Source: Bacillota bacterium
GTDB taxonomy: Bacteria; Bacillota; Sulfobacillia; RBS10-35; JAJYVN01
Direction: 5' to 3'
Assembly (NCBI GenBank): GCA_021791815.1
Contig: JAJYVV010000009.1
Coordinates: forward strand, 1-45,684
Length of the DNA: 45,684 nt
The notes under the pieces are model-generated. The model saw only the letters and a program-made list of their open reading frames with translations. It had not been told where the DNA came from and searched no databases. The position numbers and the translations under genes were made by a program. Below are positions 10,579 to 45,684 of the stretch, in pieces (positions within the stretch are counted from its first letter, which is position 1; each line of letters starts with the position of its first letter).

Positions 10579-11748
10579 TCAGTGGTGGAACAGGCGCAAT
10601 CCCGAAAGGCACATGACCATGTCGTGCTCGTCCGCGGCGGCGACGACCTCCGCATCCCGCTCGGATCCCCCGGGCTGCCAGATGTAGCGGACGCCGGTGC
10701 GGGCGGCGCGGTCGACGTTGTCGCGGAACGGGATGAAGCCGTCGCTCGCCAGGGCGACGCCGCGCAGCCGCCCCAGCCACGCGGCCCGCTCCTCGGCAGA
10801 CAGCCCCGGCGGAAGTTCGGGGCCGCCCGGCAGGGGCTCCCCGGCGAGCCACGCGTCGGTGGCGTTGTCGCGCGCCGGGCGCGGCGCGCCCGGCGGGAAG
10901 GGCAGCGCGAGCGCGCGGGGGTGCTGGCGGAGCCACCAGTTCTCCGCCTTGCCGCAGGCCAGCCGCGTGCAGTGGATCCGGGCCTGCTGCCCCGCCCCGA
11001 CCCCGATGGCCTGGCCGTCCACGGCGAGGCAGACGCTGTTGCTGGGCGTGTAGCGGAGGACGATGGCCGCCAGCACCATGTCGCGTGCGGCCTCCGGCGG
11101 GACGTCCTTGCGCCGCGTCGCCGGGGTGCCCTCCTCGACCGGCTGGGCGCTGCGGGGTTGGCGGAAGGCGACCCCGAAGACCTCGCGCCGCTCCTCGGCC
11201 GGGGGCTCCCACGCAGGGTCCATGCGCAGGACCAGGTAGCCGCCGCCCTTCTTGCGCCGCAGTCGCTCCAGGGCCGCCGGCTCGTAGCCCGGGGCCACAA
11301 CGCCGTCGGAGACCTCGCGGCCGAGCAGTTCGGCCGCCGACTCGTCCACGGGATCGCTGAAGGCGGCGAAGTCGCCGAACGAGGCCATGCGGTCGGCGCC
11401 GCGCGCACGGGCGTACGCCGCCGCCACCGGCGAGAGCCCGGAAGCCGGGACGCGGCAGGCGGCGGCCAGCCCCGGATCCAGGGGCAGCCCGAGGGCCGCG
11501 CCCGCAGGGGTGACGTGCTTCAGGGACGCGGCCGCGGGCAGAGCGAACCGCGCGCGCAGGGCGCGCACGAGCTGCCATCCGAACAGGGCATCCAGGAGGT
11601 TGATGTACCCGGGCCGCCCGCAGAGGACCTCGAGCGGCAGCGGCCCGCCCGCGGCCGCCTCCACGGATGCCGGCACCTGGTCGGGGTTCAGCCCATACCG
11701 CAGCTGCAGAGCACTCCCGGACCCCGCCGGGTGCGCGCCTTCCGCCAT
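10579..11748 (-). CDS. Monofunctional AICAR transformylase (PurH transformylase domain only)
   Basis: The 389-residue protein matches only the C-terminal half of PurH: transfer of a formyl group from 10-formyl-THF to AICAR, the ninth step of IMP synthesis. Visible motifs are LRYGLNPDQ at the start, SLKHVTPAGAALG with the catalytic Lys-His, YTPSNSVCLA, IGVGAGQQARIHCT and ASDGFIPFRDNVDRA followed by IWQPGGSERD. No IMP cyclohydrolase (MGS-like) domain precedes it, so FAICAR ring closure must come from another protein. ATG 11748 is chosen because family proteins start just before the LRYG motif; GTG 11796 is an alternative. It is flanked by broken genes and is not in a pur operon here. Confidence 0.85.
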   Translation of the reverse strand: MAEGAHPAGSGSALQLRYGLNPDQVPASVEAAAGGPLPLEVLCGRPGYINLLDALFGWQLVRALRARFALPAAASLKHVTPAGAALGLPLDPGLAAACRVPASGLSPVAAAYARARGADRMASFGDFAAFSDPVDESAAELLGREVSDGVVAPGYEPAALERLRRKKGGGYLVLRMDPAWEPPAEERREVFGVAFRQPRSAQPVEEGTPATRRKDVPPEAARDMVLAAIVLRYTPSNSVCLAVDGQAIGVGAGQQARIHCTRLACGKAENWWLRQHPRALALPFPPGAPRPARDNATDAWLAGEPLPGGPELPPGLSAEERAAWLGRLRGVALASDGFIPFRDNVDRAARTGVRYIWQPGGSERDAEVVAAADEHDMVMCLSGLRLFHH

Positions 11749-11822
11749 GTCCGCCACCTTCGCGAGCCCCGCCCCTGCGCGGGATGTTGGATGCACGGGC
11801 GCGGACCGTCCGTGCCCGGGCC

Positions 11823-16940: not shown

Positions 16941-18638
16941 ATGGGGCGGCAGATCCGCGCGGGCACGGCCCCCGAGGGCAGGAGGGCGCAGCAGGTCGCG
17001 GGCAAGCGTCCGGGCGCGGGGGGGCAGGACGCCGTCGTCGCCCCTCCGCGCCGCGGGGTGGTGGTGCGGCCCACCGGTGCCGCGGGGCCCGGGGCCGCGC
17101 GCGCGGAGCCCAAGACGCAGACGCGGGCGGCGTCCGACCGCCGGCCCGGCGAGGGGTGCCTGCTCGGCGTCGACATCGGGACCACCGGCAGCAAGGCCAT
17201 CGCCTTCACGCCCGACGGGCGCCCGGTGGCCCGCGGCTACGCGGACTATCCCCTGCACGTGGGTCCCGGTGGAACCGCGGAACTGGATGCCGAGGCCGTG
17301 ATGGACGCCCTGCGCCATGCCATCCGCGCCGCCTCGGCCGAGGCCTCCGCTGCCGGCGCGGGCCCGATCATCGCCCTCGCGGCCGCCGCGCAGGGGGAGG
17401 CCTTCACGGCCGTCGACCGCCACCTGGCGCCCCTGCGGCGATCCATCGTCACCTTCGATCGCCGCGGGCAGGCCGGCGCCGACGAACTGCGCGCCGCGGG
17501 CTGGGAGGGGCGCACCGAAAAGACGGGCCTCCCGCTGTCGTTCATCGTGACCGCGGCGAAACTGGCGGCCCTGCGCCGGGAAGACCCCGACCTGTACCGC
17601 CGGGCCGCCCACTTCCTCTGCTTCGAGGACCTGCTGGCGGCGCACCTCGTCGGCCACCCCGTGGGCAGCGACAGCCTCCTGCAGCGGACGTGGCTGCTGG
17701 ACCGGCACCGCCGCGGCTGGGACGACGCCGCGCGAGCGGAACTCGACCTGGCGGGCGGCCGCCTGGCGGAGGTCGCGCCCATGGGCGCCGCCGTGGGCGA
17801 GGTCACGCCGGCGGCGGCCCGCGCGTACGGCCTGCCCGCCGGCTGCCGGCTGGTCGCCGGCGCCCACGACCAGACCGCCGCGCTCCTCGGGGCGGGCGCG
17901 TTCCTGCCGGGCTTCGCGGCCCACGCCATCGGGACGGTGGACTGCCTCAGCGTCACCCTGCGCGACGGGGAGGCGGCGCGCTTCGTGGCCCGGGGCTACG
18001 GCCTCGGGCTGCACCCCCTGCCGGGACTCGCCGTGACCCTCGCCTTCGGCTTCGGCGGCGGCTCGCTGCTGGCCTGGGCGAAGACCCTCACCGGAGCCTC
18101 CGACGTCGGCGCCCTGCTCGCCGAGGTGCCGGAGGAGCCCGGTTCCGCGTTCGCGGTGCCCTTCTGGGCCGGTTCCGGCACCCCGGACCTCGACGCGGAA
18201 GACCGCGGCGCCGTCTTCGGCCTCACCCTGGAGACGACGCGAGGCGACTTCGTGGCGGCGCTGCTTCGCGGCATGGCCCTGGAGGGCCGGCGCAACATGG
18301 AGGTCCTCCGGGAGCTCGGCGTCGAGGTGCGGGAATGCCGCCTCGTGGGCGGCGGCGCGCAGAGCGCCGCCTGGTCGCAGCTGCGCGCCGATGTGGCGGG
18401 GCGGTCCTACGTGGAGATGGCCGTCCGCGACGCCGGGTGCCTGGGGGCGGCCATGCTGGCCGCGGTGGGCGCCGGCCTGTATCGCGACGCGAGCGCCGCC
18501 GGGGACGCGATGGTGCGCGCCGGGCCCCGCTTCGAGCCCCGCCCCGACGCCGCCGCCGCGTACTCCCAGGTGTACCCGGCGTACCTGCGGGCCGTGGCGG
18601 GGACGCGCGCCGCTCGGCCCGGAGCCGACGGCCGCTAG
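16941..18638 (+). CDS. rhaB: FGGY-family carbohydrate kinase, probable L-rhamnulokinase
   Basis: The kinase would phosphorylate L-rhamnulose at O-1. The FGGY fold starts at LGVDIGTTGSKAIAFTPDG (about residue 75), with the catalytic Asp in GAHDQTAALLGAG (about 310) and the ATP-site motif GGGAQSAAWSQLRADVAG near 470, then DAGCLGAAMLAAVGAGLY. Length (565) exceeds the usual about 490 because of a 70-residue Arg/Gly/Pro-rich N-terminal extension without structure. GTG codons at 17058-17064 could be the true start, but ATG 16941 has a fair GGGGGCAGGG site. Rhamnulokinase activity rests on the next two genes; alone it could be any FGGY sugar kinase. It is the first gene of the rhamnose operon. Confidence 0.82.
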   Translation: MGRQIRAGTAPEGRRAQQVAGKRPGAGGQDAVVAPPRRGVVVRPTGAAGPGAARAEPKTQTRAASDRRPGEGCLLGVDIGTTGSKAIAFTPDGRPVARGYADYPLHVGPGGTAELDAEAVMDALRHAIRAASAEASAAGAGPIIALAAAAQGEAFTAVDRHLAPLRRSIVTFDRRGQAGADELRAAGWEGRTEKTGLPLSFIVTAAKLAALRREDPDLYRRAAHFLCFEDLLAAHLVGHPVGSDSLLQRTWLLDRHRRGWDDAARAELDLAGGRLAEVAPMGAAVGEVTPAAARAYGLPAGCRLVAGAHDQTAALLGAGAFLPGFAAHAIGTVDCLSVTLRDGEAARFVARGYGLGLHPLPGLAVTLAFGFGGGSLLAWAKTLTGASDVGALLAEVPEEPGSAFAVPFWAGSGTPDLDAEDRGAVFGLTLETTRGDFVAALLRGMALEGRRNMEVLRELGVEVRECRLVGGGAQSAAWSQLRADVAGRSYVEMAVRDAGCLGAAMLAAVGAGLYRDASAAGDAMVRAGPRFEPRPDAAAAYSQVYPAYLRAVAGTRAARPGADGR

Positions 18639-18702
18639 GTGCGCCGCCCGTCCCGCCCAGGTCCGGTCCGAGTCCAACCCACCGACTGCCGGAGGTGCGC
18701 CC

Positions 18703-20745
18703 GTGCCCATCCCCTGGACCCCCCCGCCGCCCGAGCAGGCCCGCGACGCCCTGGGCGAACTGGTGCACCGGTCGCGGCTGCTCGGCGCCGACCGCTCGAT
18801 CTGCAACTGGGGCGGCGGCAATACGTCGTCCAAGGGTAGCGCGGCGGACTTCCGCGGCCGCACGGTGCGCGTGCTCCACGTCAAGGGCAGCGGGTCCGAC
18901 CTGGCCGACTGCGGGCCGCGGCACTTCGCGACCCTGGCGCTGGAGCCGATCCTCGAGCTCCTGGACCGCGAGGCCATGACGGATCAGGAGATGGTGGACT
19001 ACCTGGCGCACTGCGCCCTCCATCCGGGGGGCCCGCGCCCGTCCATCGAGACCCTCCTGCACGCGTTCCTGCCCGCTCCGCACGTGGACCACAGCCACCC
19101 CGACGCGATCGTCGCCCTGTGCACGGCTCGGGAGGGCCCGGAGTGGGCGCGGCGGATCTACGGAGACCGCGCCATCTGGATCCCCTACCGCCGCCCGGGG
19201 TTCGGGCTGGCGCGGCAGTGCGCCCTGGCCCTGCGCGAACGCCCGGACGCGCGGCTCATCCTGCTCGCCAAGCACGGCCTGATCACCTGGGGCGAGACGT
19301 CCGAGGAGTCGTACACGGGCACCATCCGCGCCGTCGCGGAGGCCGAGGCCTTCCTGCGGGGCCGGGGACCGGATGCGGCGCCGGCCCGGCGGTCGGCGGC
19401 GACCGCGCCCGCGGAGCCGGTCGAGTCGCTGCTTCCGTGGCTGCGGGGGCGGCTTTCGGCCGGCGGCCGGGTCGTGCTCACCCTGGACGACACCCCCGAG
19501 ACCCTGGCCTTCCTGGACGACGAGGCGCGCATGGCGGTCATCGCCGAGGGGGCGGCATGCCCCGATCACCTGGTCCACACGGGCCGCCTGCCGCTGCGGC
19601 TGCGCCGGGGCGCGGACCGGCCGGCCATCGAGGCGGCCCTCGCCGCCTTCGCGCGGGACGTGACCGCCGAGTACGGGGCGTGCTCCGCGCGGGGGGAGGC
19701 GCAGTTCCCCCAGGACCCTCCCATCCCGCGGGTGATCCTGCTCCCGGGCGTGGGCCTGATCACCTCCGGCAGGAGCAAGGCCGCATCGCGGGTCAGCCGC
19801 GACCTCGCCCACCGGGCGATGGCCGTGGCCGACCTGCTGGTGCGCGCGAGCGGCGCCTACGAGCCGCTCGGGGCGCAGGACGCCCACAACGTCCAATACT
19901 GGCCCCTGGAGCGGTACAAGCTCACGCTGCAGCCGCCGGAGCGCGAGTTCTCGCGCCAGGTGGCCTTCATCACCGGCGGCGCCGGAGGCATCGGGAGCGC
20001 CATCGGGCGCCGCTTCGCGGGGGGCGGCGGCCACGTCGTGCTCGCCGACCTCGACGGGCCCGGCGCGGAGGCGCGGGCCAAGGAGCTGAACGCCGAATTC
20101 GGGGACGGCTGCGCCACGGCGGTGGCCGTCAACGTCACCGACGAGGCGCAGGTGGCGGCGGCCATGGGCGCCGCGGTGCGCGCGTACGGCGGCATCGACC
20201 TCTGCGTCGCCAACGCCGGCATCGCCTCCTCGGCCCGCATCGAAGACACGTCCATGGACGAGTGGAACCGGAACCTGTCGGTCCTCGCGACCGGCTACTT
20301 CCTCGCGGCGCGGGAAGCCGCCCGCGTCCTCCGCGGCCAGGGGTCGGGCGGCTCCATCGTGTTCGTGGCGTCGAAGAACGCGGTCGCCGCCGGCAAGAAC
20401 ATCTCGGCGTACGGGGCGGCGAAGGCGGCCGAACTGCACCTGGCGCGCTGCCTGGCCGAGGAGTTGGGACCGGACGGCATCCGGGTGAACGTGGTGAATC
20501 CGGACGCCGTCCTGTCGGGATCGCGCATCTGGTCGTCCGACTGGAAGAAGGCCAGGGCGGCGAACTACGGCATCGCGGAGGAGGACCTGCCGGCCTTCTA
20601 CCGCCAGCGCACGATCCTCCACGTGAACATCGAACCGGGCGACGTGGCCGAGGCGGTCTGCTTCCTCGCGTCGGCCCGCGCGAGCAAGACCACGGGCGCG
20701 ATGCTGCCGGTCGACGGCGGCGTCGGCCCGGCGTTCCCTCGGTAG
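18703..20745 (+). CDS. rhaEW: Bifunctional L-rhamnulose-1-phosphate aldolase / L-lactaldehyde dehydrogenase
   Basis: A 680-residue fusion of YuxG/RhaEW type. Residues 1-400 are a class II aldolase: NWGGGNTSSKG phosphate site (about 35), Zn ligands in HVDHSHPDAI (from 127) and KHGLITWGE (His about 191). Residues 415-680 are a short-chain dehydrogenase with TGGAGGIGSA (about 424), NAGIASSA and the YGAAK active site (Tyr about 570). The aldolase splits rhamnulose-1-phosphate into DHAP and L-lactaldehyde; the SDR half oxidises lactaldehyde to L-lactate, as shown for RhaEW in other bacteria. Start GTG 18703 has GGAGGTG six bases upstream. It lies 64 bases after the kinase and upstream of the isomerase. 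Confidence 0.93.
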   Translation: MPIPWTPPPPEQARDALGELVHRSRLLGADRSICNWGGGNTSSKGSAADFRGRTVRVLHVKGSGSDLADCGPRHFATLALEPILELLDREAMTDQEMVDYLAHCALHPGGPRPSIETLLHAFLPAPHVDHSHPDAIVALCTAREGPEWARRIYGDRAIWIPYRRPGFGLARQCALALRERPDARLILLAKHGLITWGETSEESYTGTIRAVAEAEAFLRGRGPDAAPARRSAATAPAEPVESLLPWLRGRLSAGGRVVLTLDDTPETLAFLDDEARMAVIAEGAACPDHLVHTGRLPLRLRRGADRPAIEAALAAFARDVTAEYGACSARGEAQFPQDPPIPRVILLPGVGLITSGRSKAASRVSRDLAHRAMAVADLLVRASGAYEPLGAQDAHNVQYWPLERYKLTLQPPEREFSRQVAFITGGAGGIGSAIGRRFAGGGGHVVLADLDGPGAEARAKELNAEFGDGCATAVAVNVTDEAQVAAAMGAAVRAYGGIDLCVANAGIASSARIEDTSMDEWNRNLSVLATGYFLAAREAARVLRGQGSGGSIVFVASKNAVAAGKNISAYGAAKAAELHLARCLAEELGPDGIRVNVVNPDAVLSGSRIWSSDWKKARAANYGIAEEDLPAFYRQRTILHVNIEPGDVAEAVCFLASARASKTTGAMLPVDGGVGPAFPR

Positions 20746-20928
20746 GGGGGCGACCGCGGACGGCCCCGCCTCCCGCGGTCGCCCCGGGCCGCGCCGGTCG
20801 TGGCGCGACTCCGCCCGGCCGCCACCGCCCGGCAGGGCCGACCAGACCACCCGGCGAAGCGGCCGGCGTGGGGCGTCCCGGCCGCCGGGCCGGGCGCGCG
20901 ATCCGGACCGCCGGGAGGTCGATGCGCC

Positions 20929-22059
20929 GTGGCCGTCTCCCCGGAGATCTCCGACATGCTCGCCCGCTTCACCGTGGCCATCCCGTCCTGGGGCTTCTCC
21001 CCCATGGGCACGCGCTTCGCCACGTTCCTCCTGGGGGACGAGGCCCGCGACATTTACGGACGGATCGACCGCGCGTCCGAAGTGCACCAGGCGACGGGCA
21101 TCACGCCCGGGCTCGCCCTGCATTTCCCCTGGGACCGCACGGACGACCTCGGCGCCCTCGGCCGGTACATCCACGCGCGCGGCCTGCGGGTCGAGGCCGT
21201 GAACCCGAACACGTTCCAGGATCCGACCTACCGGCTGGGGAGCGTGGCGCACCACGACCCGGCGGTCCGGCGGCAGGCCGTGGAGCACCTGCTCTGGTGC
21301 GTGGAGGCCCAGAAGCAGCTGGACGCGCCCTACCTGTCCCTCTGGTTCGCGGATGGCACGAACTATCCGGGTCAGGCCGACTTCCGCCGTCGCCACGAGG
21401 CGGTGCTGGACAGCCTGCGGCCCGTGGCCGCCGCCCTGGCGCCGGGCCACACGATGCTGGTCGAGTACAAGCCGTTCGAGCCGGCCTTCTACCACACCGA
21501 CCTCGCGGACTGGGGCACCGCCCTGCTGGTGTGCCAGCAGCTCGGGGCCCAGGCGAAGGTGATCGTCGACCTCGGCCATCACCTGCAGGGCCACAACGTC
21601 GAATTCACCGTCGCCCTGCTGCAGCACGCCGGCCGCCTGGGCGGGTTCCACCTCAACAACCGCAAGTACGCCGACGACGACCTGATGACGGGCAGCCTCG
21701 ACCCGTACGGCCTCTTCCTCATCTTCCGCGAACTGGTCAAGGGCGAGCGGCTGTATGGGCGACGCATCGAGTCCGTCTCCTACTGCCTGGACCAGTCGGC
21801 CAACGTCGAGGCCAAGGTGCCGGCGATGATCCTCTCCGTGATGAACACCCAGGAAGCCTTCGCCAAGGCGCTGCTGGTCGACGAGGACGCGCTCGCGGCC
21901 GCGGAGGCGGAGGGCGACGTGATCGCGGCGCAGGAGGTCCTGCGGGCGGCCTTCCTGACGGACGTGCGCCCGATGCTGGCGGAATTCCGGCGCGGCCGCG
22001 GCACGCCGGAGGACCCGTTGCGGTATCATCGGGAGCGGATGGCGCCCGCGCGGGCGTAG
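20929..22059 (+). CDS. rhaI: L-rhamnose isomerase, RhaI type
   Basis: The isomerase converts L-rhamnose to L-rhamnulose in a metal-dependent TIM barrel. The 376-residue protein resembles Pseudomonas stutzeri/rhizobial RhaI rather than E. coli RhaA: TVAIPSWGFSPMGTRFATF, LHFPWDRTDDLGAL, NPNTFQDPTYRLGS, then metal ligands Glu in VEYKPFEPAF (about 179), Asp in VDLGHH (about 214), His in GGFHLNNRKYADDD (about 241). Start GTG 20929 follows GGGAGGTC by nine bases; an ATG seven bases earlier is out of frame. It follows rhaEW by 183 bases, same direction. The protein ends normally, with TAG as stop. Confidence 0.92.
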   Translation: MAVSPEISDMLARFTVAIPSWGFSPMGTRFATFLLGDEARDIYGRIDRASEVHQATGITPGLALHFPWDRTDDLGALGRYIHARGLRVEAVNPNTFQDPTYRLGSVAHHDPAVRRQAVEHLLWCVEAQKQLDAPYLSLWFADGTNYPGQADFRRRHEAVLDSLRPVAAALAPGHTMLVEYKPFEPAFYHTDLADWGTALLVCQQLGAQAKVIVDLGHHLQGHNVEFTVALLQHAGRLGGFHLNNRKYADDDLMTGSLDPYGLFLIFRELVKGERLYGRRIESVSYCLDQSANVEAKVPAMILSVMNTQEAFAKALLVDEDALAAAEAEGDVIAAQEVLRAAFLTDVRPMLAEFRRGRGTPEDPLRYHRERMAPARA

Positions 22060-24733: not shown

Positions 24734-25534
24734 ATGAAGGTTGCCCTGCTTGTGACCTGCCTGGCCGAAGCCTTTGCGCCGCAGGTCGCGGACGCCGCGG
24801 CGCGCCTCGTCGCCGCCGCCGCCCCCGACGCCGAGGTGGTGCCGGTCGACCGGTGCTGCTGCGGCCAGCCCGCCTGGAACGCGGGCTATCCCGGGCAAGC
24901 CCGGACGATGGCGCGGGGGCTCCTGCCGCGGCTGCGGGAATGCGACCTGGTGGTCGTGCCCTCGGGATCGTGCGCGACCATGCTCCTCCGCTACTACCCG
25001 CACCTGTTCGCCGAAGGCGACCCCGCCGGGGAGGCGGCCCGCGCGGTGGCCGCCAAGACAGTAGAACTCACGGCGTTCCTGGCGGCCCACCTCCCGGCGG
25101 ACGGCGCGCCGCCGGAAGGCGCGGCCGCCCCGACCGGCGCTGGCGGCGCTCCGAGCATCGCATTCCACCCCTCCTGCCACTCGCTGCGCGGCGCGCGCGT
25201 GGGCGACGCGGGCGAGCGGTGCCTCCGCGCCGCCGGCTGCGAGGTGCGCCAGGCGGGCGCCGCCGACGAGTGCTGCGGCTTTGGCGGCCTGTTCGCCGTC
25301 AAGGAGGACGCCCTCTCCGTGGCCATGGCCGACCGCAAGCTGGACGGCCTGCTCGCCACCGGCGCGCCGGAGGTCGCGGCGGGCGAGCTGGGGTGCCTCA
25401 TGCACCTGGAGGGACGCGCCCAGCGCCGCGGCATGTCGCTGCGCTTCCGCCACGTCGCGGAGGTCCTGGCCGACGCCAACGGCCGCCCCGCAGGGCCCGG
25501 CGGGCCCGCGGAGCCGGGGCGTGACGCCCGGTGA
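24734..25534 (+). CDS. lutA: LutA-type L-lactate oxidation Fe-S subunit (CCG-domain protein)
   Basis: The 266-residue protein has two cysteine-rich CCG domains: VDRCCCGQPAWNAGY (about 40) with VVPSGSCATML (about 80), and HPSCHSLR (about 150) with DECCGFGGLFAVK (about 178) and GELGCLMHLEG (about 220). These bind a non-canonical Fe-S cluster of heterodisulfide-reductase type. LutA with LutB and LutC makes the L-lactate oxidase complex that yields pyruvate. ATG 24734 was chosen at the start of the conserved KVALLVTC strand; only a weak GAACG site precedes it. The stop overlaps the start of the next gene by four bases (GTGA), so the two are translationally coupled. Confidence 0.92.
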   Translation: MKVALLVTCLAEAFAPQVADAAARLVAAAAPDAEVVPVDRCCCGQPAWNAGYPGQARTMARGLLPRLRECDLVVVPSGSCATMLLRYYPHLFAEGDPAGEAARAVAAKTVELTAFLAAHLPADGAPPEGAAAPTGAGGAPSIAFHPSCHSLRGARVGDAGERCLRAAGCEVRQAGAADECCGFGGLFAVKEDALSVAMADRKLDGLLATGAPEVAAGELGCLMHLEGRAQRRGMSLRFRHVAEVLADANGRPAGPGGPAEPGRDAR

Positions 25535-27465
25535 CCGAGTTCATCCCGGCCGAGGCCGTTCTGGCCCGCGCCGTCCGCTCCACGACCGACCGCCTCGCCG
25601 CCGGCCGCACGACCGCCCTGGCGGGGATGGCCGATCCCGACGCGGCCCGCGCCCGCGCCCGCGCGGCCCGCCAGCGCGCCGTGTCCCGCCTGCCGGCCAC
25701 GCTCGCGACCTTCGAGGCCGCGGCCGGCCGCAACGGCACCGTGGTCCACCGGGCCGCCGACGCGGCCTCCGCGGTCCGCATCGTCGCCGACATCCTCCGG
25801 CGCGCCGGCGCACGGCGCGTCGTGAAGTCCAAATCCATGGCGACGGAGGAGATCCGCCTCCGCGAGCGCCTGGAACACGCCGGCATCCAGGTCGTGGAGA
25901 CCGACCTCGGCGAGTGGATCGTGCAGCTCGCCGGCCAGATGCCGTCGCACATCATCGTCCCCGCGGTGCACCTGAACCGCCAGCGCATCCGGGCCCTGCT
26001 GTCCGCGGTCGCGGGCCGCGACCTCGGGGCCCAGACCTCCGCGCTCGCGGGCTTCGCCCGCGCGCACCTGCGGGAGCGGTTCCTCGAGGCCGACGCCGGC
26101 ATCAGCGGCGCCAACGTCCTGACCGCCGACACCGGCGGCCTGATGATCGTGAGCAACGAGGGCAACGCCCGCATGTGCACGACGCTGCCCCGCCTGCACA
26201 TCGCGGTGGTGGGCGTCGAGAAGGTCGTGGAGTCGACGCGCGACGCCCTGGACGTGCTGGCCGTCCTGCCGCGGTCCGCCACCGGCCAGCCGATCACGCA
26301 GTATGTATCGTTCCTGCGCGGTCCGCGCCGCGCGAAGGACGCCGAGGGCGACGGCCCCGACGAACTGCACGTGGTGCTCCTGGACAACGGCCGGTCGCGG
26401 CTGGTGGGCACCCCGGCGGAGGAGCTGCTGTACTGCATCCGATGCGGGGCGTGCCTCAACGTCTGCCCCGTCTACCGCACCATCGGCGGCCACGGCTACG
26501 GGTCCGTCTATCCGGGCCCCATCGGGGCGGCGCTCACGCCGCGGCTGACGCGGGGCCGCGAGGGGCGCGACCTGCCATGGGCGTCCTCGCTGTGCGGCGC
26601 GTGCCGCGACGCCTGCCCGGTGGGCATCCAGCTCGACGACCAACTGATCGCCCTGCGGGCCGAGTACCCGAAGCCCCTCGGGGAGCGCGCGGCGATGGTC
26701 GCGTACGCGGCGGCCGCGTCGCGGCCTGCGGTGTTCGGCGCCGCGCTGCGCGTGGCGCGCGTCGTGCTCGGGGGCCAGCCGGCGGACCGCCTGCCCGGGG
26801 TGTTGGACCGGTGGACGCGCGGCCGCCGGGTGCCCGGCATCGCCCCGCTGAGACGGCACCTGCGCCTGGAGCCGGCGCCGCGGAAAGACGCGCCGCTGCC
26901 GCCGCCGGCCGTCCCGCGCCAGGGCGGGACCACTTCCGAGGCGCCCGGTACGGCGGCGCCGGCGCCGGACCTGGTCGAGCGCTTCAGCGAGCGGTGGCGG
27001 GCACAGGGGGGCGCCGCAGTGGTCGTCGCCCGCGCGGACCTGGCGTCCGCCGTGCGGGAGGCGATCGGCGCCGGACCCGTGAGCCCCGACGCCGCGCTGG
27101 AGGGTCTGGTGGAGGGCATCGCGCGCGCGGAGCCCGCCGCCGCGGCGTCGGGCCTGGTGTGGGCCGCGGCTGCCGCCGCCGAGACCGGATCAGTCGTCCT
27201 TCCGAGTGGCCCGGGCACGGAGCGGCGCCGCTCGCTGCTGCCACCGCGGGCGGTGTTCGTCGTGGACGGCGGGTTCATCCACCCGGATCTGCACGCCGCC
27301 TTCGAGGCGGCCGGGCTGCTGGAGGCTCCGGCCGACGCCCCCCCCGCGCCCGCGGCCATCACGGTCGTCTCCGGGCCGAGCCGCTCCGCCGACATCGAGA
27401 ACGACCTGGTGATCGGGGTGCACGGGCCCGGCGAGGTCGTGGCGATCGTGGTGCGCGAAGCGTAG
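25531..27465 (+). CDS. lutB: LutB-LutC fusion, lactate oxidation iron-sulfur protein
   Basis: A 644-residue chain joining two normally separate proteins. Residues 1-465 are LutB: KSKSMATEEIRLRERLEHAG (about 105), the LUD-domain core, then 4Fe-4S ligands in CIRCGACLNVCPVY (302, 305, 308, 312) and CGACRDACPVGI (355, 358, 362). After a Pro/Arg linker, residues about 480-644 are LutC-like: AQGGAAVVVARADLA, AETGSVVLPSG, RAVFVVDGG and the end SRSADIENDLVIGVHGPGEV. LutC normally is a separate gene. Together with LutA the complex oxidises L-lactate to pyruvate. No lactate permease is nearby. GTG 25531 overlaps the lutA stop. LutC here lacks part of its usual N-terminal region, so I call the fusion from the C-terminal core. 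Confidence 0.9.
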   Translation: MTEFIPAEAVLARAVRSTTDRLAAGRTTALAGMADPDAARARARAARQRAVSRLPATLATFEAAAGRNGTVVHRAADAASAVRIVADILRRAGARRVVKSKSMATEEIRLRERLEHAGIQVVETDLGEWIVQLAGQMPSHIIVPAVHLNRQRIRALLSAVAGRDLGAQTSALAGFARAHLRERFLEADAGISGANVLTADTGGLMIVSNEGNARMCTTLPRLHIAVVGVEKVVESTRDALDVLAVLPRSATGQPITQYVSFLRGPRRAKDAEGDGPDELHVVLLDNGRSRLVGTPAEELLYCIRCGACLNVCPVYRTIGGHGYGSVYPGPIGAALTPRLTRGREGRDLPWASSLCGACRDACPVGIQLDDQLIALRAEYPKPLGERAAMVAYAAAASRPAVFGAALRVARVVLGGQPADRLPGVLDRWTRGRRVPGIAPLRRHLRLEPAPRKDAPLPPPAVPRQGGTTSEAPGTAAPAPDLVERFSERWRAQGGAAVVVARADLASAVREAIGAGPVSPDAALEGLVEGIARAEPAAAASGLVWAAAAAAETGSVVLPSGPGTERRRSLLPPRAVFVVDGGFIHPDLHAAFEAAGLLEAPADAPPAPAAITVVSGPSRSADIENDLVIGVHGPGEVVAIVVREA

Positions 27466-35179: not shown

Positions 35180-35208
35180 TTGCGGCCACCCGAGGCCCGT
35201 GCTACCCT
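35180..35208 (+). promoter_or_regulatory. Promoter for the c-di-AMP riboswitch and antiporter
   Basis: TTGCGG (35180-35185), 17-base spacer, TACCCT (35203-35208) with GTGC just before the -10. The distance to the riboswitch (about 27 bases) is right for a transcript starting near 35215. It is the best of the three similar promoters in the window because the RNA downstream is certain. Confidence 0.65.
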
Positions 35209-35234
35209 GTGCCCAACTGAATACGCGCCAGGCC

Positions 35235-35350
35235 GATCGCTGAGTCGCCGCCCTGCGGCGAGCGGGGGAACCCCCGATCCTTGGGGCTAATCCTCGAAAG
35301 AGGTAGGGGCAACGTTCGCTCCGAGCCCGTCAGCTAACCTCGTAAGCGTG
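35235..35350 (+). promoter_or_regulatory. Cyclic-di-AMP (ydaO/yuaA-class) riboswitch
   Basis: The aptamer is clear from conserved blocks in the right order. The 5' arm ATCGCTGA is followed by a CGCCGCCCTGCGGCG hairpin, AGCGGGGGAACC, a GGGGCTAATCC segment, the CCTCGAAAGAGG stem-loop with TAGGGG, and finally GAGCCCGTCAGCTAACC and CGTAAGCG, whose AGCG pairs with the first CGCT. These match the ydaO consensus. Members turn off K+ uptake, osmolyte or cell-wall genes when c-di-AMP is high. Here the downstream gene is a K+/H+-type antiporter. The expression platform probably lies in the 150 bases before the start codon. Confidence 0.95.
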
Positions 35351-35369
35351 GAACGATGGCGCCGCATGT

Positions 35370-35395
35370 CCCGCGGGCATGCCCTGCCCTGCGGG
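35370..35395 (+). terminator. Terminator-like hairpin in the riboswitch expression platform
   Basis: CCCGCGGGCA (35370-35379) pairs with TGCCC-T-GCGGG (35385-35395, one bulged T) over a five-base loop, about 20 bases after the aptamer. No U-run follows, so termination would be of the GC-rich type. A second small hairpin, CCCCC-GAG-GGGGG at 35481-35493, covers the ribosome-binding site and could act instead. Confidence 0.4.
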
Positions 35396-35499
35396 CCCAA
35401 CGCGACTCGTCTGTTGGCCGCGCGTCGTGGCGCACCGCGGCAGCGGAGACGCGATGGTCGGGCGCTCAGCGACGGCGATTCCCCCGAGGGGGGCTTGCT

Positions 35500-37665
35500 G
35501 TGTCGCTGTCGACGCCGGACCTGGTCCGCCTCCTGCTGCAGTTCGCCCTACTGCTGGGCCTCGCCCGCGCCCTGGGCGAAGTCGCGCGCCGCCTCGGTCA
35601 ACCCCAGGTCATCGGCGAACTCCTGGCCGGCGTCGTCCTCGGCCCCTCCCTTGTCGGCGGCGTCTTTCCGGGCGCGCTGGCTGCGCTGTTCCCCGCCGCC
35701 GGCAGCGAGGGGCTGCTGCTCCAGCTCGTGGCGCAGATCGGCGTGATCCTGCTTCTGTTGATGAGCGGACTGGAGGTCGACGTCGACCTGGTGCGCCGCA
35801 GGGCGCGTCCGGCCGTGCTCGTTGCCCTGGGCGGCGTCGTCGTGCCCTTTCTCTGCGGATACGGCTTCGCCTCGCTCCTGCCGGGGAGCCTCGCCGGCGC
35901 GGCCGCCCCCCGCCCCGCCTTCGCGCTCTTCGTGGCCACCGCCATGTCGATCTCGGCGATCCCGGTCATCGTCAAGATCCTCCTCGACATGGGCCTCATG
36001 CGCCGGGACGTCGGTCAGTTGACCGTGGCCGCGGGTGTGCTCAACGACGCCACGGGCTGGTTCCTCCTGGCGATGGTCTCCGGGGTCGCGGCGGCCCGGG
36101 CGCTGCCGCTCACCTCCCTGGCGTTCTCGTTCTTCGGCCTACTCGCCTTCGCGGCGTTCTGTTTCACGTGGGGATACCGCCTGCTGCGGTGGCTGGTCAC
36201 CTGGGTCGACGACCGCGTCGGCGGAGAGAGCGCGGCGCTGTCGGCCGTGCTGGTCGCGGGGCTCGTGGGCGCGGCCGCGACGGAGGCCCTGCACCTGGAA
36301 GCCTTCCTGGGGGCATTCGTGGTCGGCGTCCAGCTCTCGCGTATTGAGCGTGTCGGGCGGGCGGCGCGCGCCAAACTTCAGGCGCTGACCCTGGCGGTGT
36401 TCGCGCCGGTGTTCTTCGCCAGCGCCGGTCTGCGGGTGGACATCCCCACCATCGTCACGCCCATGCTGGCCCTCGTCACCCTGGTCCTGGTCGCCGTCGC
36501 CTGCGCCGGCAAGTTTGCCGGCACGTACGCCGGCGCCCGGCTCGCCGGGCTGGGGCACTGGATGTCCGTGGCGCTCGGGTCAGGCATGAACGCCCGTGGC
36601 GCCGTCGAGAGCATCGTGGCCACCGTTGGGCTGCAGATGGGCGTCCTCGGCGTGCCGATGTATTCGATGATCATCGTGATGGCGGTCGCCACGTCGGTCA
36701 TCGCTCCGCCCCTGTTGCGCTGGTCGCTGCGCCGCGCGCCCCCGGACCCCGCCGAGGAGGACCGCCTGCGCCGGGAGGCATGGCAGGCGCGCAGCTTCCT
36801 TCAAGGACTGCGGCGCATGCTGGTGCCCGTGCGGGACGGCCGGTATGCCCTCGTGGCGGCGGAGGTTGTGGGGCACCTGGCGGACGGGCGGCAGGTGGAG
36901 GCGGTGGCGATGCGGGTCCGGGTCCCGCCCGCTCCCGAAGGGGACCCCCTGCCCCTCCCGGAGTTCCGAAACGGCCGAGTCGCGTGGTCGCGCCGCGAGA
37001 TCGATGACCCCCGCGGGGTGACCGCAGCGGTGCTGGCGGAGGCCGCGCGGGGCTACGACTTGGTCGTGGTTGGCGCCTCAGACGACCGTCGGGCGGTCGG
37101 ACTCTTCGGCCCGGTGGCCGACGCCCTGGTGCGCGCCTCCCCCTGCAGCGTGCTCGTGCTGCGGGCGCCAGAGTGGCGCGGCGGCGTTGGAAGCATCGGG
37201 CGCATTCTGGTACCGACCACCGGGACGCGCGCGGACCTCCACGTTGCGGAATTCGCGGTGGCCCTCGCGCGCGGGGCTGGCGCCGAGGTGGTCGCGCTCC
37301 ATGTCGTGGAGAATCGCGCCCTGACGTCGCCCTTCGGGGGGCGCGCCGAGGCCGACCTCGGGATCGGGATGGAGATCGGCCGGCACGCGACGCGGGAGGT
37401 GGCGAACCTGGGCGAATTCCTGGGGGTGCGCGTCGCTGGGGCGGTGCGCACGGGGTCGGGGCGGGGCGCCGGCGCCGAAATCGTCCACTTCGCCACGGCC
37501 GGCGGATGCGACCTGATCCTGCTCGCCGGCGAGCCCCGGCCCATGGGTCCAGCCCTGCACTGCGGACGCACGGTCGCGGAGGTGGTGCGGACGGCCCGCT
37601 GCCCCGTGGCCGTCCTCATCGACGAGCCGGGACGCCCTCTCCTTCCCGAACCCTCGGGGGCCTGA
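35500..37665 (+). CDS. CPA2-type cation/proton antiporter with tandem universal-stress domains
   Basis: A 721-residue protein. Residues 5-395 form 12-13 membrane helices of the Na+/K+:H+ exchanger fold (LGQPQVIGELLAGVVLGPSL; ISAIPVIVKILLDMG; AAGVLNDATGWFLL). The conserved Asp of the ND pair (LNDATGW) is the proton/cation site. A soluble part follows. The region about 420-560 is a degenerate universal-stress-like domain (YDLVVVGASDDRRAVGLFGPVADALVRASPCSVLVL), and about 565-710 is a second one (GRILVPTTGTRADLHVAEFA, ending CDLILLAGEP and VVRTARCPVAVLID). Start GTG 35500 has GAGGGGGGC six bases upstream. The riboswitch upstream implies regulation by c-di-AMP and K+ homeostasis; the ion cannot be told from sequence. 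Confidence 0.93.
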   Translation: MSLSTPDLVRLLLQFALLLGLARALGEVARRLGQPQVIGELLAGVVLGPSLVGGVFPGALAALFPAAGSEGLLLQLVAQIGVILLLLMSGLEVDVDLVRRRARPAVLVALGGVVVPFLCGYGFASLLPGSLAGAAAPRPAFALFVATAMSISAIPVIVKILLDMGLMRRDVGQLTVAAGVLNDATGWFLLAMVSGVAAARALPLTSLAFSFFGLLAFAAFCFTWGYRLLRWLVTWVDDRVGGESAALSAVLVAGLVGAAATEALHLEAFLGAFVVGVQLSRIERVGRAARAKLQALTLAVFAPVFFASAGLRVDIPTIVTPMLALVTLVLVAVACAGKFAGTYAGARLAGLGHWMSVALGSGMNARGAVESIVATVGLQMGVLGVPMYSMIIVMAVATSVIAPPLLRWSLRRAPPDPAEEDRLRREAWQARSFLQGLRRMLVPVRDGRYALVAAEVVGHLADGRQVEAVAMRVRVPPAPEGDPLPLPEFRNGRVAWSRREIDDPRGVTAAVLAEAARGYDLVVVGASDDRRAVGLFGPVADALVRASPCSVLVLRAPEWRGGVGSIGRILVPTTGTRADLHVAEFAVALARGAGAEVVALHVVENRALTSPFGGRAEADLGIGMEIGRHATREVANLGEFLGVRVAGAVRTGSGRGAGAEIVHFATAGGCDLILLAGEPRPMGPALHCGRTVAEVVRTARCPVAVLIDEPGRPLLPEPSGA

Positions 37666-37954
37666 GCCCGGTGCGCGTCCGCCACCGTGTCCGCGGGAAG
37701 GACCGCGTCCTCCTGAGTCGGCCCCGACAACCCGGCGCCTGCTGGGGGGCGAGGGACGGGGCTCGGCGGGTCCCGAGGGTCTGCTCGGAGCGGGGGCGTG
37801 CGGCGGGGATCCGGAGATCATCCGCATGGCGATCGAGCTCGTGGACGGGCCCCGGGACGACCCGCGCTCGTTCGGGATGCTGGAGCAGCCGCTGCGGATC
37901 TGCAACCGCGGCACGGGGCCATGGGCGAACCATGCCTGGGACCGCGGCACGTAC

Positions 37955-38428
37955 CTCACGTACTTCGGACTGGTGCTGAAGGTGGGTTCGGCGTTGCAGG
38001 GGTATCTGGAATTCCCGCATGCCGCCAAAGTGTTTCGCATCCGTCGTGAGACCAGCAAGATCAAGGCCGGGAAGGTCACCGCAGACACCGCATACGGCGC
38101 GAACAGCCTGACTGCCGAGAAGTCCAAGCCATAGCGACTGTGCGCCCTGGTCCGCAATCATTGGCACATCGAGACCACAGTGCACTACGTGCGTGACGTG
38201 ACCTATGGTAAGGACGCGAGTCAGGTGCGCACGGCCGACGGGCCGCGCGCCATGGCCACCCTGCGCAACCTCGCCATCGCGCTGATCCGCCGCAAGGGCT
38301 GGTCCGGCATCCCCAAGGGCAACCGCCGCCAAGCCGCCCGACGGCACGAGGTCCTGGCCCTGCTGGGAGTCTGCACCTCCCGCCCGCACCCCCTGCGTCC
38401 GTCGTCCCTGGCCGGCCGCTCGCCGTAG
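37955..38428 (+). mobile_element. Transposase remnant (IS4-superfamily/ISAs1-like C-terminal part)
   Basis: The frame reads YLTYFGLVLKVGSALQGYLE, PHAAKVFRIRRETSKIKAGK and VTADTAYGANSLTAEKSKP, then an in-frame TAG (38132-38134). It resumes without a shift as RLCALVRNHWHIETTVHYVR, DVTYGKDASQVRTADGPRAM and ATLRNLAIALIRRKG, to a stop at 38428. This is the C-terminus of ISAs1-type transposases, which contain the 'HWxIExxLHYVRDVTFGEDxSQVR' motif with the catalytic Glu. The N-terminal half and terminal inverted repeats are missing, so the element is dead. The 289 bases before it hold no recognised gene. It is about 420 bases from tRNA-Leu. Confidence 0.8.
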
Positions 38429-41957: not shown

Positions 41958-43796
41958 CTACCCCGGACCTCCGGCCCCGTCCCGCGGCGCGCCGGAGCCC
42001 GCACCCGAGAGCGGTCCGCCCGCGTCGTCCTGGCCCTGGGGCCGCGGCACCACCCGGCCGGCGGCCGCGCCGGTGGCGGGCGGCAAGCCGGTGCGGGAGG
42101 CGGCCGCGGTCGACGGGGACTGATCGAAGTCCTCCATGTCCCGATCTTGGACGCCGAGGCGCAACGCGATCTCCTCGACCTCGTCGCCGCTGATCTCGTC
42201 GCGTTCCATCAACGCTTCGGCGATCGCGTGGACGAAGGGTCCGTTCTCCTCCAGCAACCGGCGCACGCTCTCCATCGACTGGTTGAGGAGCCGCTCCACC
42301 ATCTTCTTCATCTGGGCGTCGGGCACGGACTGCTGGCCCATGCCCTGGATGAAGAGCGGCGAGTACAGGCTCCCTTCCATGCCCAGCGCCCCGACCATGG
42401 CGCCGGCCAACTGCGTGGCGCGGCGGAAGTCGTCGAGCACGCCGGACAACTTCGTCCCGAGAAAAAGTTCTTCGGCGGCGCGGGAGGCCAGCATGGTGCG
42501 CAGCTCCGCGCGCAGCTCCTGCTCGGAGGCGGTATGGCGCTCCTCCAAGGGCTTCCACGCCGCAAAGCCCAGCGCGTCGCCGTGCCGGACGATCGTCACC
42601 TTCACGAGGCGGTCCTTCTTGCGGGACAGGAGGTAGCGGGCCACCGCGTGGCCCGCCTCGTGGTAGGCGAGGCGGCGGCGGTCCTCCGCGGACATGGCGC
42701 GGATCGGCTGCCGCAGCCCCCACTCCCACATCTCCCGGGCCTCGGTGAAGTCACGGTACGAGACCTCGTCGCGATCCTCGAAGTGGGCCACGACGACGGC
42801 CTGGTTGATGATGTGCTTGATCATCACCGGCGTGAACCCGATGGTCTCGGCCGCCGCGCGGTGGAAGGGGAACTCCGGCGCGTGCTTGACCTTGCTCATG
42901 TAGTACTGCAAAAGGTCCAAGCGGCCGTCCATGTCAGGCGCGTCCACGGTGATCTTGTGGTCGAAGCGGCCCGGGCGGATCAGCGCGGGATCGAGGACGT
43001 CCGCCAGGTTGGTCGCGCCCATCGTGAAGACGTTGGGCCGTTCGACCTTGCCCCGGCGCAGGCCCATCTGCCGCAGCAGGCGGGGCAGCCATGCGGTCTC
43101 GATGCCGGGCGGGTCCATCTCCATCAGCAGCTGGTTCAGCATGCCGGTGTTCCCGCCGAACATGCCGCCCAACCCGCCCATGCCGCCGCCCGACATGCGC
43201 GAGGCACCGATGGCGTCGATCTCGTCGATGAAGATGATGGCCGCGCCGAACTCGCGAGCCATCTTCCGCGCCTTGCGATAGAGGCTCATGATCGTCAGTG
43301 TGCCGATGCCGAAGAACATGCTCTGAAAGGACGGCGCCGAGGCATAGCAGAAGGGCACGCCCGCCTCGCCCGCGATCGCCTGGGCGAGGTAGGACTTGCC
43401 GGTCCCCGGCGGGCCGACCAGCAGCAGCCCGCGGGGCACCTCGCCGCCCATCTCCTTGAAGCGCTTCACCCCGCGCAGCAGGGTCACCGTGCGCTCGGCG
43501 AAGTCGAGCACCGAGCGGTTCCCGCGGTAGTCCGCGAAGGTGATGCCGCACTCCTCAGGGTTCAGCCAGTATACGCGGGGCCGGGACAGGAACCAGAAGA
43601 TCGCGACGAACTGGATGACGGCCATGAAGATGAGCAGCATGACCTCGAACAGGGTGCTGAGGATGCCGCCGACCAGCGATCCGCCGTAGCCGAACTGGGG
43701 AACGAACCACGTGAAGTACAGGGCGACCAGAATGGCCACGACGGCCAACAGCACCGAATTGCGGCGGGCAAAGCGGGCCAGCCAGCGACTGAACAT
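41958..43796 (-). CDS. FtsH-like membrane AAA ATPase and zinc protease, divergent
   Basis: A 612-residue FtsH-type protease. Two N-terminal membrane helices (about 12-30 and 42-70) lie close together with a very short periplasmic loop, unlike the about 70-residue loop of standard FtsH. The AAA domain has GPPGTGKS (about 127), the pore segment SFQSMFFGIGTL in place of FVGxGA, IIFIDEIDAIGASR and RPGRFDHKI. A Gly/Met-rich insert follows the sensor region (about 200-220). The M41 protease site is YHEAGHAVAR (about 376) with a downstream Asp in LDDFRRAT. The C-terminal about 45 residues are low-complexity. Start ATG 43796 follows GAAGGTGGGG. It lies between the MreB-like gene and the secreted protein. 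Confidence 0.88.
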   Translation of the reverse strand: MFSRWLARFARRNSVLLAVVAILVALYFTWFVPQFGYGGSLVGGILSTLFEVMLLIFMAVIQFVAIFWFLSRPRVYWLNPEECGITFADYRGNRSVLDFAERTVTLLRGVKRFKEMGGEVPRGLLLVGPPGTGKSYLAQAIAGEAGVPFCYASAPSFQSMFFGIGTLTIMSLYRKARKMAREFGAAIIFIDEIDAIGASRMSGGGMGGLGGMFGGNTGMLNQLLMEMDPPGIETAWLPRLLRQMGLRRGKVERPNVFTMGATNLADVLDPALIRPGRFDHKITVDAPDMDGRLDLLQYYMSKVKHAPEFPFHRAAAETIGFTPVMIKHIINQAVVVAHFEDRDEVSYRDFTEAREMWEWGLRQPIRAMSAEDRRRLAYHEAGHAVARYLLSRKKDRLVKVTIVRHGDALGFAAWKPLEERHTASEQELRAELRTMLASRAAEELFLGTKLSGVLDDFRRATQLAGAMVGALGMEGSLYSPLFIQGMGQQSVPDAQMKKMVERLLNQSMESVRRLLEENGPFVHAIAEALMERDEISGDEVEEIALRLGVQDRDMEDFDQSPSTAAASRTGLPPATGAAAGRVVPRPQGQDDAGGPLSGAGSGAPRDGAGGPG

Positions 43797-43921
43797 CGGC
43801 CCCACCTTCTCTCGGCGAGGCGGTGGATAGGCGGGAAGGCGCGCCGCGGGCGCTCCATCCTGCCGCGCCCCACGCAGGTCCGGCGGCTCCGGTCCGGGCA
43901 CGACCGGTCGCGGTGGGGCCC

Positions 43922-43985: not shown

Positions 43986-45032
43986 TTACGCCTCGAGGGG
44001 GAAGTGGTCGACCTGCGGCTCGGGCGCGGCGGCCTCCTGACGGACGTCGCCCTGCCGGGCCAGGCGCGCCAACCCGCGCACGAGGCAGCGCCCGGAGTCG
44101 TCGGCCAGCGTGAGGGGAAGGCCGAGTTCCGCCTCCAGCAGCTCCCGGAGGCCCGGGACGCGCGCCCCGTTGCCGACCAGCAGCACGCCGCGGCTCTGCA
44201 CGTCCATGCGCAGGGCGGGCGGGCAGCGCGTGAAGACCTCGGTCAGGTGTTCGAGCAGCGCCGCCGTGGGGCGGCGCATCGCCTCGGCCGCGAACGACGA
44301 GGGCAGGGCGAGCGTGGTGAGCCTGCCCGTGAGGCGATCCTGAGCGGGGAGGCGGACGTCGCCGCCGTTCCGCTTCCACTGCTCGACGCAGACGCGGGGG
44401 ACGCGCACCCGGTGGGCGTCCTCGACCGCGGCGTGCAGCGCCGCGGTCCATTCATGGCCGCCCCCGGCCCGCTGGTCCGCGAGCACCGGGCGCCCGAAGG
44501 ACAGCACCGTGGCGCAGGTGCGCTGGGCGCCGACATCCACCACCATCATGCCGGGCAGCCCCGACGGGTCGACCCCGCCGCCCATGGACTGCGCGACGGC
44601 GCCGTCCCCGAACTGGAACTCCCGGACGGGCAGTTCGCGAAGGAAGGCCGTGAGCACGCTGCGCTCGAGGGGCGTCATGCCCGACGGCGCCGCGATGCAC
44701 AGACGGGGCCGCCAGAGGCGGCGACGCTGCAGGTGGTGGAGCAGCAGGCGGACCAGGAGGCGCGCGGCGCGCGTCTCGCTGAGGTGCCCCACCTCGACCG
44801 GCGGCGCGAGGCGCCAGCCTTCGGGCAGGCGCTCCTCCATGTGGAGGGCCCGCTTGCCGATGGCCTGAACGTGCCCCGAGGAGTCGAGGACGGCCCGCGC
44901 AGGTATCTCCATCAGGGAGCGGGCGCCGGCGTAGGCCAGGCGGAAAGCGTCCGTGCCCAGGTCCAGGGCGACGGTGGCGGGGCGCCAGAAACGCGCCCAC
45001 GCCGACGGCATATAGCGGACGGGGGTCGCCAC
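43986..45032 (-). CDS. MreB-like actin-family ATPase, divergent
   Basis: A 348-residue protein with the MreB fold order: phosphate-1 loop VALDLGTDAFRLAYAG, then ERLPEGWRLAPPVEVGHLSE (MreB: 'RPMKDGVIADF'), PRLCIAAPSGMTPLERSVL (MreB: 'PSGITEVERRA'), QFGDGAVAQSMGGG, phosphate-2 loop MMVVDVGAQRTCATVLSFG, and adenosine motif LLVGNGARVPGLRELLEAE. In true MreB phosphate-2 is DIGGGT; here it is DVGAQRT, and the membrane-binding loop differs. So this is a divergent cytoskeletal or PilM/FtsA-like actin homologue, perhaps with altered ATP use. GTG 45032 gives a normal N-terminus; ATG 45011 is an alternative. It lies upstream of the FtsH-like gene (190 bases apart). Confidence 0.75.
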   Translation of the reverse strand: MATPVRYMPSAWARFWRPATVALDLGTDAFRLAYAGARSLMEIPARAVLDSSGHVQAIGKRALHMEERLPEGWRLAPPVEVGHLSETRAARLLVRLLLHHLQRRRLWRPRLCIAAPSGMTPLERSVLTAFLRELPVREFQFGDGAVAQSMGGGVDPSGLPGMMVVDVGAQRTCATVLSFGRPVLADQRAGGGHEWTAALHAAVEDAHRVRVPRVCVEQWKRNGGDVRLPAQDRLTGRLTTLALPSSFAAEAMRRPTAALLEHLTEVFTRCPPALRMDVQSRGVLLVGNGARVPGLRELLEAELGLPLTLADDSGRCLVRGLARLARQGDVRQEAAAPEPQVDHFPLEA

Positions 45033-45276
45033 AGCGCCTCGTCCCCCCGGGGAACCGGTTGTTCGAGGAATCGCGCCGAAGCCCGCGGCGGCCCGCGGGC
45101 GGGGCCGCTCGCCAGGGGGGACCGGGGCCGGGGTCGCGGCAGCGCTGCCATCCGGGACCGGGCGGGTCCCGGACGGTGCGGAAGGCCGGGGCGGGCGGCG
45201 ATTCTCGACGCCTTCCGACGTTCCGCAGCCCATTTTGGTGGGGGGGCGGGAGCGGGGGCAAGGCGCACAACTTTCC

Positions 45277-45684
45277 TCAATTGGTATGGACTTCATGGAT
45301 CCGTCCTTCAAGGCCGGGCGTTGCGGCGACGCGCCGCTCCGGCGGCCCGAGCAGGGGGGGCCACCGGTCCGCGGGTACGACGGGCCCCGCGGCCGGGGCG
45401 CTCTCGAGGCATCCGTGGCGCAGGCGCAGGACCCCGTCCGCCCCCCCCAGGACGGCCTCGTCATGGCTGACCACCAGGAGCAGCGCCCCGCGCTCTCGAC
45501 GGTACTCGTGGAGGAGCCCCATCAGTTCCGCCCCGCTGTCCCGGTCCAGCGCGGCGGTCGGCTCGTCCGCGAACAGCACGACGGGGCTGTTCATCAGGGC
45601 GCGCGCCGCGGCCACCCGCTGCCGCTGACCGCCCGAGAGTTCGTGGGGGAGCCGGCCGCCGCAGCGGCCCAGCCCGAGCCGCGC
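45277..45684 (-). CDS. ABC transporter ATP-binding protein, C-terminal part
   Basis: The gene runs off the right edge; 135 residues of the C-terminal half are visible. The signature HELSGGQRQRVAAARAL is followed by VVLFADEPTAALDRDSG (Walker B and D-loop) and LLLVVSHDEAVL with the switch His. This is the LolD/MacB/FtsE type of ATPase, which drives membrane-subunit transporters. The last 40 residues are a variable Pro/Arg tail. No permease is visible within the window; it would lie beyond the edge. Confidence 0.9.
   Translation of the reverse strand, partial: ARLGLGRCGGRLPHELSGGQRQRVAAARALMNSPVVLFADEPTAALDRDSGAELMGLLHEYRRERGALLLVVSHDEAVLGGADGVLRLRHGCLESAPAAGPVVPADRWPPLLGPPERRVAATPGLEGRIHEVHTN

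Follow-up and report, generated by a model that had tools for sequence, protein, structure and literature searches.

How c-di-AMP might govern a cation/proton antiporter gene, and whether it does so through RNA, through protein or through both, is the question raised by one locus in the 45,684-nt stretch of DNA analysed here (the window). An original prediction, made from the letters alone, described at this locus a near-consensus ydaO/yuaA aptamer with its own promoter, a terminator-like hairpin, a ribosome-site hairpin and a single long gene for a CPA2 antiporter fused to two universal-stress-like (USP) domains, and proposed double control by c-di-AMP at the RNA and protein levels. We consider it probable that the leader is a translational OFF switch acting on the antiporter–USP gene by strand exchange, such that the antiporter would be made when c-di-AMP is low, for Na+ (or K+)/H+ movement.

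The aptamer is clear. A covariance search returned a strong RF00379 match (E 2.4e-16 over the window), which covers the full length of the model with 77.2 bits, the gathering score being 38 bits (Table 1). No other match in this MAG (G000; 3.86 Mb, 87% complete) exceeds the threshold. At the site of the outer P1 extension, inspection by eye found a differing yet complementary helix in G000, G009, G004 and G003, and a pairing that needs a bulge in G005. The predicted promoter is also retained, as a putative extended -10 element. It was not picked up by a generic promoter scan of the leader, but is credible because the same extended -10 layout, TTGNNN-17/18-TGNTANNNT, lies 48–81 nt upstream of the aptamer in all five orthologous leaders; matches by chance arise in 0–0.4% of shuffles per leader. 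The same genome contains a sub-threshold RF00379 match of 27.5 bits (G000:C206:9250-9386) upstream of a LysM + Hydrolase_2 (cell-wall-hydrolase) gene; this match probably marks a genuine riboswitch that has diverged.

Table 1. Features of the antiporter–USP locus, in window positions.
Feature	Position	Strand	Basis
Putative extended -10 promoter: TTGCGG, 17 nt ending TGC, TACCCT	35180..35208	+	Layout in five orthologous leaders
5' strand of outer P1 extension, GCGCCA; pairs with UGGCGC 35357-35362	35225..35230	+	By eye
c-di-AMP (ydaO/yuaA) riboswitch aptamer	35228..35363	+	RF00379 77.2 bits, model 1-134
Aptamer 5' strand GCCG-A-UCGCUGAG with P1 5' half CGCU 35238-35241; proposed antisequestor	35232..35244	+	Duplex energy
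P1 3' strand AGCG	35345..35348	+	RF00379 alignment
Shared switch strand CGCUCAGCGACGGCG; predicted to pair with aptamer 5' strand or with SD/start region	35463..35477	+	Duplex energies, folds
Predicted sequestor hairpin over Shine-Dalgarno and start codon	35467..35508	+	RNAalifold five-leader consensus; single-sequence fold
Shine-Dalgarno-like GAGGGGGG, 6 nt before GTG 35500	35486..35493	+	Sequence
CPA2 antiporter with C-terminal tandem USP, 721 aa, GTG start	35500..37665	+	Pfam PF00999 E 2.6e-50, PF00582 E 2.9e-23; 10-member ortholog alignment
Na_H_Exchanger membrane domain, residues 24-410; ion site N182-D183, K338	35569..36729	+	Pfam, ortholog alignment
USP-like domain 1, residues about 438-555	36811..37164	+	AlphaFold2 + Foldseek
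USP-like domain 2, residues 567-705	37198..37614	+	PF00582; AlphaFold2 + Foldseek

The aptamer and the gene are conserved as a pair. A search of 154 genomes of the class found full-architecture orthologs in 7, counting the window's own genome. G000, G005, G009, G004 and G003, which represent five genera of one order, carry an RF00379 aptamer 78–136 nt upstream of this gene. When two listings were cross-matched for 61 related genomes, 5 of 71 Na_H_Exchanger places followed an aptamer on the same contig and strand, and all five are these orthologs. Gene neighbours differ among the five riboswitch genomes, so leader and gene travel together as a stand-alone unit, not as an operon inherited as a block. 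No aptamer accompanies the orthologs in G101 and G002, the second copy in G004, or the homologs in Alicyclobacillus, a Bacillota MAG and an Actinomycetota MAG; the homologs that a wider search returned from Alicyclobacillus, further Bacillota MAGs and an Actinomycetota MAG likewise lack the riboswitch. Beyond the class, 398 genomes drawn from the phylum yielded no ortholog at E<=1e-100. The five riboswitch genes form two supported groups in the tree, with riboswitch-less G101 beside one of them; as judged from this topology, one gain with losses and two gains are both possible histories of the aptamer. The riboswitch-less second copy in G004 (C126) contains one in-frame TGA.

The ligand should be present, going by gene content, since the genome encodes a cdaA-cdaR-glmM locus with its one diadenylate cyclase (DAC domain PF02457, E 1.3e-41). 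Other aptamers of the order stand mostly before cell-wall hydrolases (Hydrolase_2/LysM, 3D, M23, GH18), with further targets in trehalose-6-phosphate synthase, phosphosulfolactate synthase and a binding protein with OpuAC/NMT1 similarity (taurine/betaine-type). The RF00379 targets of the order make up a typical osmotic regulon, into which the antiporter fits. In many cell-wall-hydrolase genes of the order (loci L072, L074, L078, L083 and L093) an SD-like purine run, for example AAGGAGG, starts <=~10 nt from the P1 3' strand, with the coding start directly behind it, which suggests compact translational c-di-AMP riboswitches working by direct occlusion. Two further aptamers, L073 (G002) and L079 (G004), lie upstream of a phosphosulfolactate synthase (ComA) domain, identified by Pfam in L073 and by resemblance in L079; a c-di-AMP link to a sulfonate solute or a coenzyme M-like path through these genes is possible.

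The gene itself is, as predicted, a single long one that joins a CPA2 antiporter (PF00999) to two USP domains (PF00582, AlphaFold2/Foldseek). Its start is most likely the GTG listed in Table 1, because the similarity shared by 10 orthologs sets in at MSLS; the ATG at 35356, which is the first in frame, was rejected on the same ground. All five riboswitch genes start with GTG or TTG, and riboswitch-less G101, G002 and L006 with ATG. Assignment to CPA2 follows from the Na_H_Exchanger fold together with an ion-site Asp and Lys in the NapA pattern: D183 and K338 are invariant in 10/10 orthologs and align with NapA D157 and K305. The residue before D183 is N in 8 of the 10 orthologs, and otherwise G or S. 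The electrogenic NapA-type pattern, Asp at motif position 6 and Lys at position 8 (PMC6181914), is thus absent from all ten, which have N, G or S at position 6, as is the QD motif of Kef-type K+/H+ exchangers (PMC11150392), in whose place stands ND, GD or SD. The TIGR00932 model of the CPA2 family gave 144.8 bits, below its curated cut-off of 238.3, and Pfam found no RCK_C domain in the protein. The ion-site stretch may resemble that of plant CHX proteins.

The expression platform was compared across five leaders, all from one order. In the window, 35232-35244 and 35463-35477 are predicted to form a duplex of -24.6 kcal/mol (p=0.0007), an energy reached by 3 of 6523 28-mer windows sampled along the 45.7 kb. 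All five leaders carry such an aptamer-complementary segment at -39 to -21 of the start; their mean duplex energy is -19.9 kcal/mol, compared with -11.2 +/- 1.2 for dinucleotide shuffles, none of 3000 being as low in a test that treats related leaders as independent. Weak matches to the aptamer strand are not specific, because riboswitch-less G101 reaches -15.0 kcal/mol with the same strand.

The same segment has a second partner. RNAalifold, run on the five leaders without the aptamer, independently recovered the predicted ribosome-site hairpin, with 19 pairs (3 outside 35467-35508), 6 of which show two-sided changes, and a covariation term that is not favourable. The left arm of this hairpin is the segment complementary to the aptamer P1 strand, and the two conserved pairings predicted by sequence comparison are mutually exclusive. 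Folded as a single sequence, the window hairpin has an energy of -34.1 kcal/mol (p=0.019). Start-region hairpins are individually significant in 2/5 riboswitch leaders and in none of the three riboswitch-less orthologs checked (G101, G002, L006). The antisequestor pairing appears in the MFE structure of the 288-nt window leader; in ensemble folding, which does not separate the two states cleanly, it is dominant in G005 only, and forcing P1 barely alters the accessibility of the SD. In G000 and G005, part of the SD remains paired in either state through a short GC-rich upper stem. The whole-leader MFE z-score of -0.46 is uninformative in RNA this rich in GC.

These pairings suggest how the switch could work. 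Without ligand, the aptamer 5' strand, which includes the 5' half of P1, would pair with the shared switch strand, the ribosome site would stay open and the antiporter would be made. Binding of c-di-AMP by the RNA would lock P1 and free the sequestor arm, whereupon 35467-35476 could pair with 35497-35508, sequestering the SD and GTG start and turning translation off. Expression would then be expected at low c-di-AMP, that is under osmotic or salt stress or low K+, together with the lineage's other riboswitch-controlled osmolyte and cell-wall genes. The most plausible role would be in adaptation to salt, by exchanging Na+ (or K+) for H+.

Other readings of the leader are less well placed. That the aptamer is a relic, decayed or re-specialised and without effect on the gene, is highly improbable: its 77 bits compare with up to 110 for the best aptamers of the class and two non-standard pair positions are flagged in the RF00379 alignment, but the five genera have retained the core sequence, the promoter and the switch strands, whereas their linkers have diverged. 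Transcriptional action, by Rho-dependent or cryptic termination in the 78–136-nt linker instead of by ribosome access, is unlikely even though the kdp, rpfA and Dehalobacter tandem c-di-AMP riboswitches use transcription termination (PMC6488665, PMC10117811, PMC9337991) and a strong hairpin lies 3' of the aptamer in G000. The terminator-like hairpin of the original prediction does not hold up as an intrinsic terminator, having no U-tract; no stem plus U-run was found in the window leader, the other four show none either, and the conserved structure sits at the SD and start codon. Moreover, in other RF00379 genes of the order an SD-like purine run often lies <=~20 nt after P1, which suggests that translational control is common there. 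Such control is not itself new, since a review already places ydaO among the classes able to occlude the ribosome site (PMC10907184). An ON switch, in which the same aptamer would have c-di-AMP induce the antiporter as with K+ exporters elsewhere, is also quite unlikely. Activation of CpaA and KhtTU-type K+ exporters by c-di-AMP at the protein level (PMC6488665, PMC10117811) would make ON the coherent sign if the gene encodes a K+ exporter, and the equilibrium folds are ambiguous. However, the sequestor arm is complementary to the very P1 strand that ligand-stabilised folding removes, which implies OFF, and the published c-di-AMP riboswitches compared are OFF (PMC6488665, PMC10117811, PMC9337991).

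The remaining alternative adds a protein layer to the RNA switch and turns on the C-terminal tail. The membrane part of a whole-protein AlphaFold2 model was poor (pLDDT 61.9), and the domain claims are drawn solely from the C-terminal model (pLDDT 81.8, pTM 0.84), which shows an ordinary tandem USP, two alpha/beta folds in one chain. Foldseek matched residues 412-710 best to the tandem USPs Rv2623, TTHA0350 and UspE (E down to 1.6e-11), and also to the USP-fold tails of cation-chloride cotransporters. The original prediction had looked to this region for nucleotide sites. Neither the Walker A-like ATP motif Gx2Gx9G(S/T) nor (A/G/C)xSxSx2N, the KdpD-type c-di-AMP motif (PMC8214093), occurs in either domain in 10/10 orthologs, so the double-layer idea is unsupported: its RNA half is upheld by the covariance match, the five-genus gene linkage and the cdaA-cdaR-glmM locus, and its protein half lacks support, given the missing motifs and the lack of RCK_C, although the tail may bind some ligand. 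Direct binding of c-di-AMP (or ATP) by the tail would have c-di-AMP act twice, switching translation off through RNA and binding the degenerate tandem USP in a mode unlike that of KdpD, and would place fast gating and slow repression on a single polypeptide. We regard this as very unlikely. KdpD USP domains do bind c-di-AMP while likewise lacking the ATP motif (PMC8214093), the first Gly of the motif in USP1 (G525) is kept in most orthologs, and a regulatory role is plausible for a USP tail joined to a transporter; yet the same tail is found in riboswitch-less orthologs, including one from an Actinomycetota MAG, and so does not track the riboswitch.

A translational OFF switch would set this locus beside known systems and apart from them. 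It shares with the RF00379 riboswitches of B. thuringiensis kdp, B. subtilis kimA and Streptomyces rpfA the aptamer architecture, an ion-homeostasis target and a predicted OFF logic, but their targets are K+ importers or cell-wall hydrolases, and the window leader is predicted to use strand exchange on the SD/start instead of an intrinsic terminator. The antiporter has the PF00999 fold and the ion-binding Asp and Lys of NapA, KefC and the CHX-like clade, and a USP-like C-tail is present in plant CHX17 too (PMC7573149); the window protein differs in its first motif residue (N, with N/G/S among orthologs, where NapA has D and KefC has Q) and in carrying a tandem USP tail instead of an RCK domain. 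In contrast to Rv2623, TTHA0350, UspE and TeaD, the USP of an osmolyte TRAP transporter, the window USPs are fused to an antiporter and have both lost the ATP-binding motif. The KdpD USP, tied to K+ homeostasis, is likewise a USP fold without that motif, but its defining c-di-AMP residues are missing here. CpaA, KhtTU and CpeAB are K+(Na+)/H+ antiporters controlled by c-di-AMP through RCK_C, whereas control of the window gene, also predicted to respond to c-di-AMP, would lie at the RNA level, without RCK_C and with the opposite sign.

That sign, which the original prediction leaves aside, bears on the ion. Because c-di-AMP is known to activate K+ exporters (PMC6488665, PMC10117811), an OFF switch would be incoherent, and unexpected, for a K+ exporter, but coherent for an ion exchanger needed at low c-di-AMP, for example in Na+ extrusion under salt stress. 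If the OFF switch is real, either the antiporter is a Na+ exporter (or serves K+ retention) or the simple rule by which c-di-AMP favours export does not always hold. The genes under c-di-AMP RNA control would then include a USP-tailed cation/proton antiporter, regulated through a conserved strand-exchange design. In the literature compared, no description was found of a CPA2 antiporter–USP gene as a c-di-AMP riboswitch target; the gene list of Nelson et al. 2013, reportedly the source for the RF00379 class, lay outside that comparison.

Elsewhere in the window, 18391-22056 (+) and 25531-27462 (+) encode rhamnose catabolism, with a bifunctional rhamnulose-1-P aldolase/dehydrogenase, an L-rhamnose isomerase and a LutB/LdhH-type iron-sulfur protein. 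A stand-alone AICAR formyltransferase (NF005492) at 10582-11796 (-) resembles the formyltransferase part of PurH only. An AAA+/M41 FtsH-like protease adjoins an MreB-like protein that scores well below its family cut-off (41958-43901 (-) and 43989-45464 (-)). Just downstream of the antiporter gene lies a 102-aa ORF with no Pfam match (37826-38134 (+)), which presumably resembles a transposase remnant.
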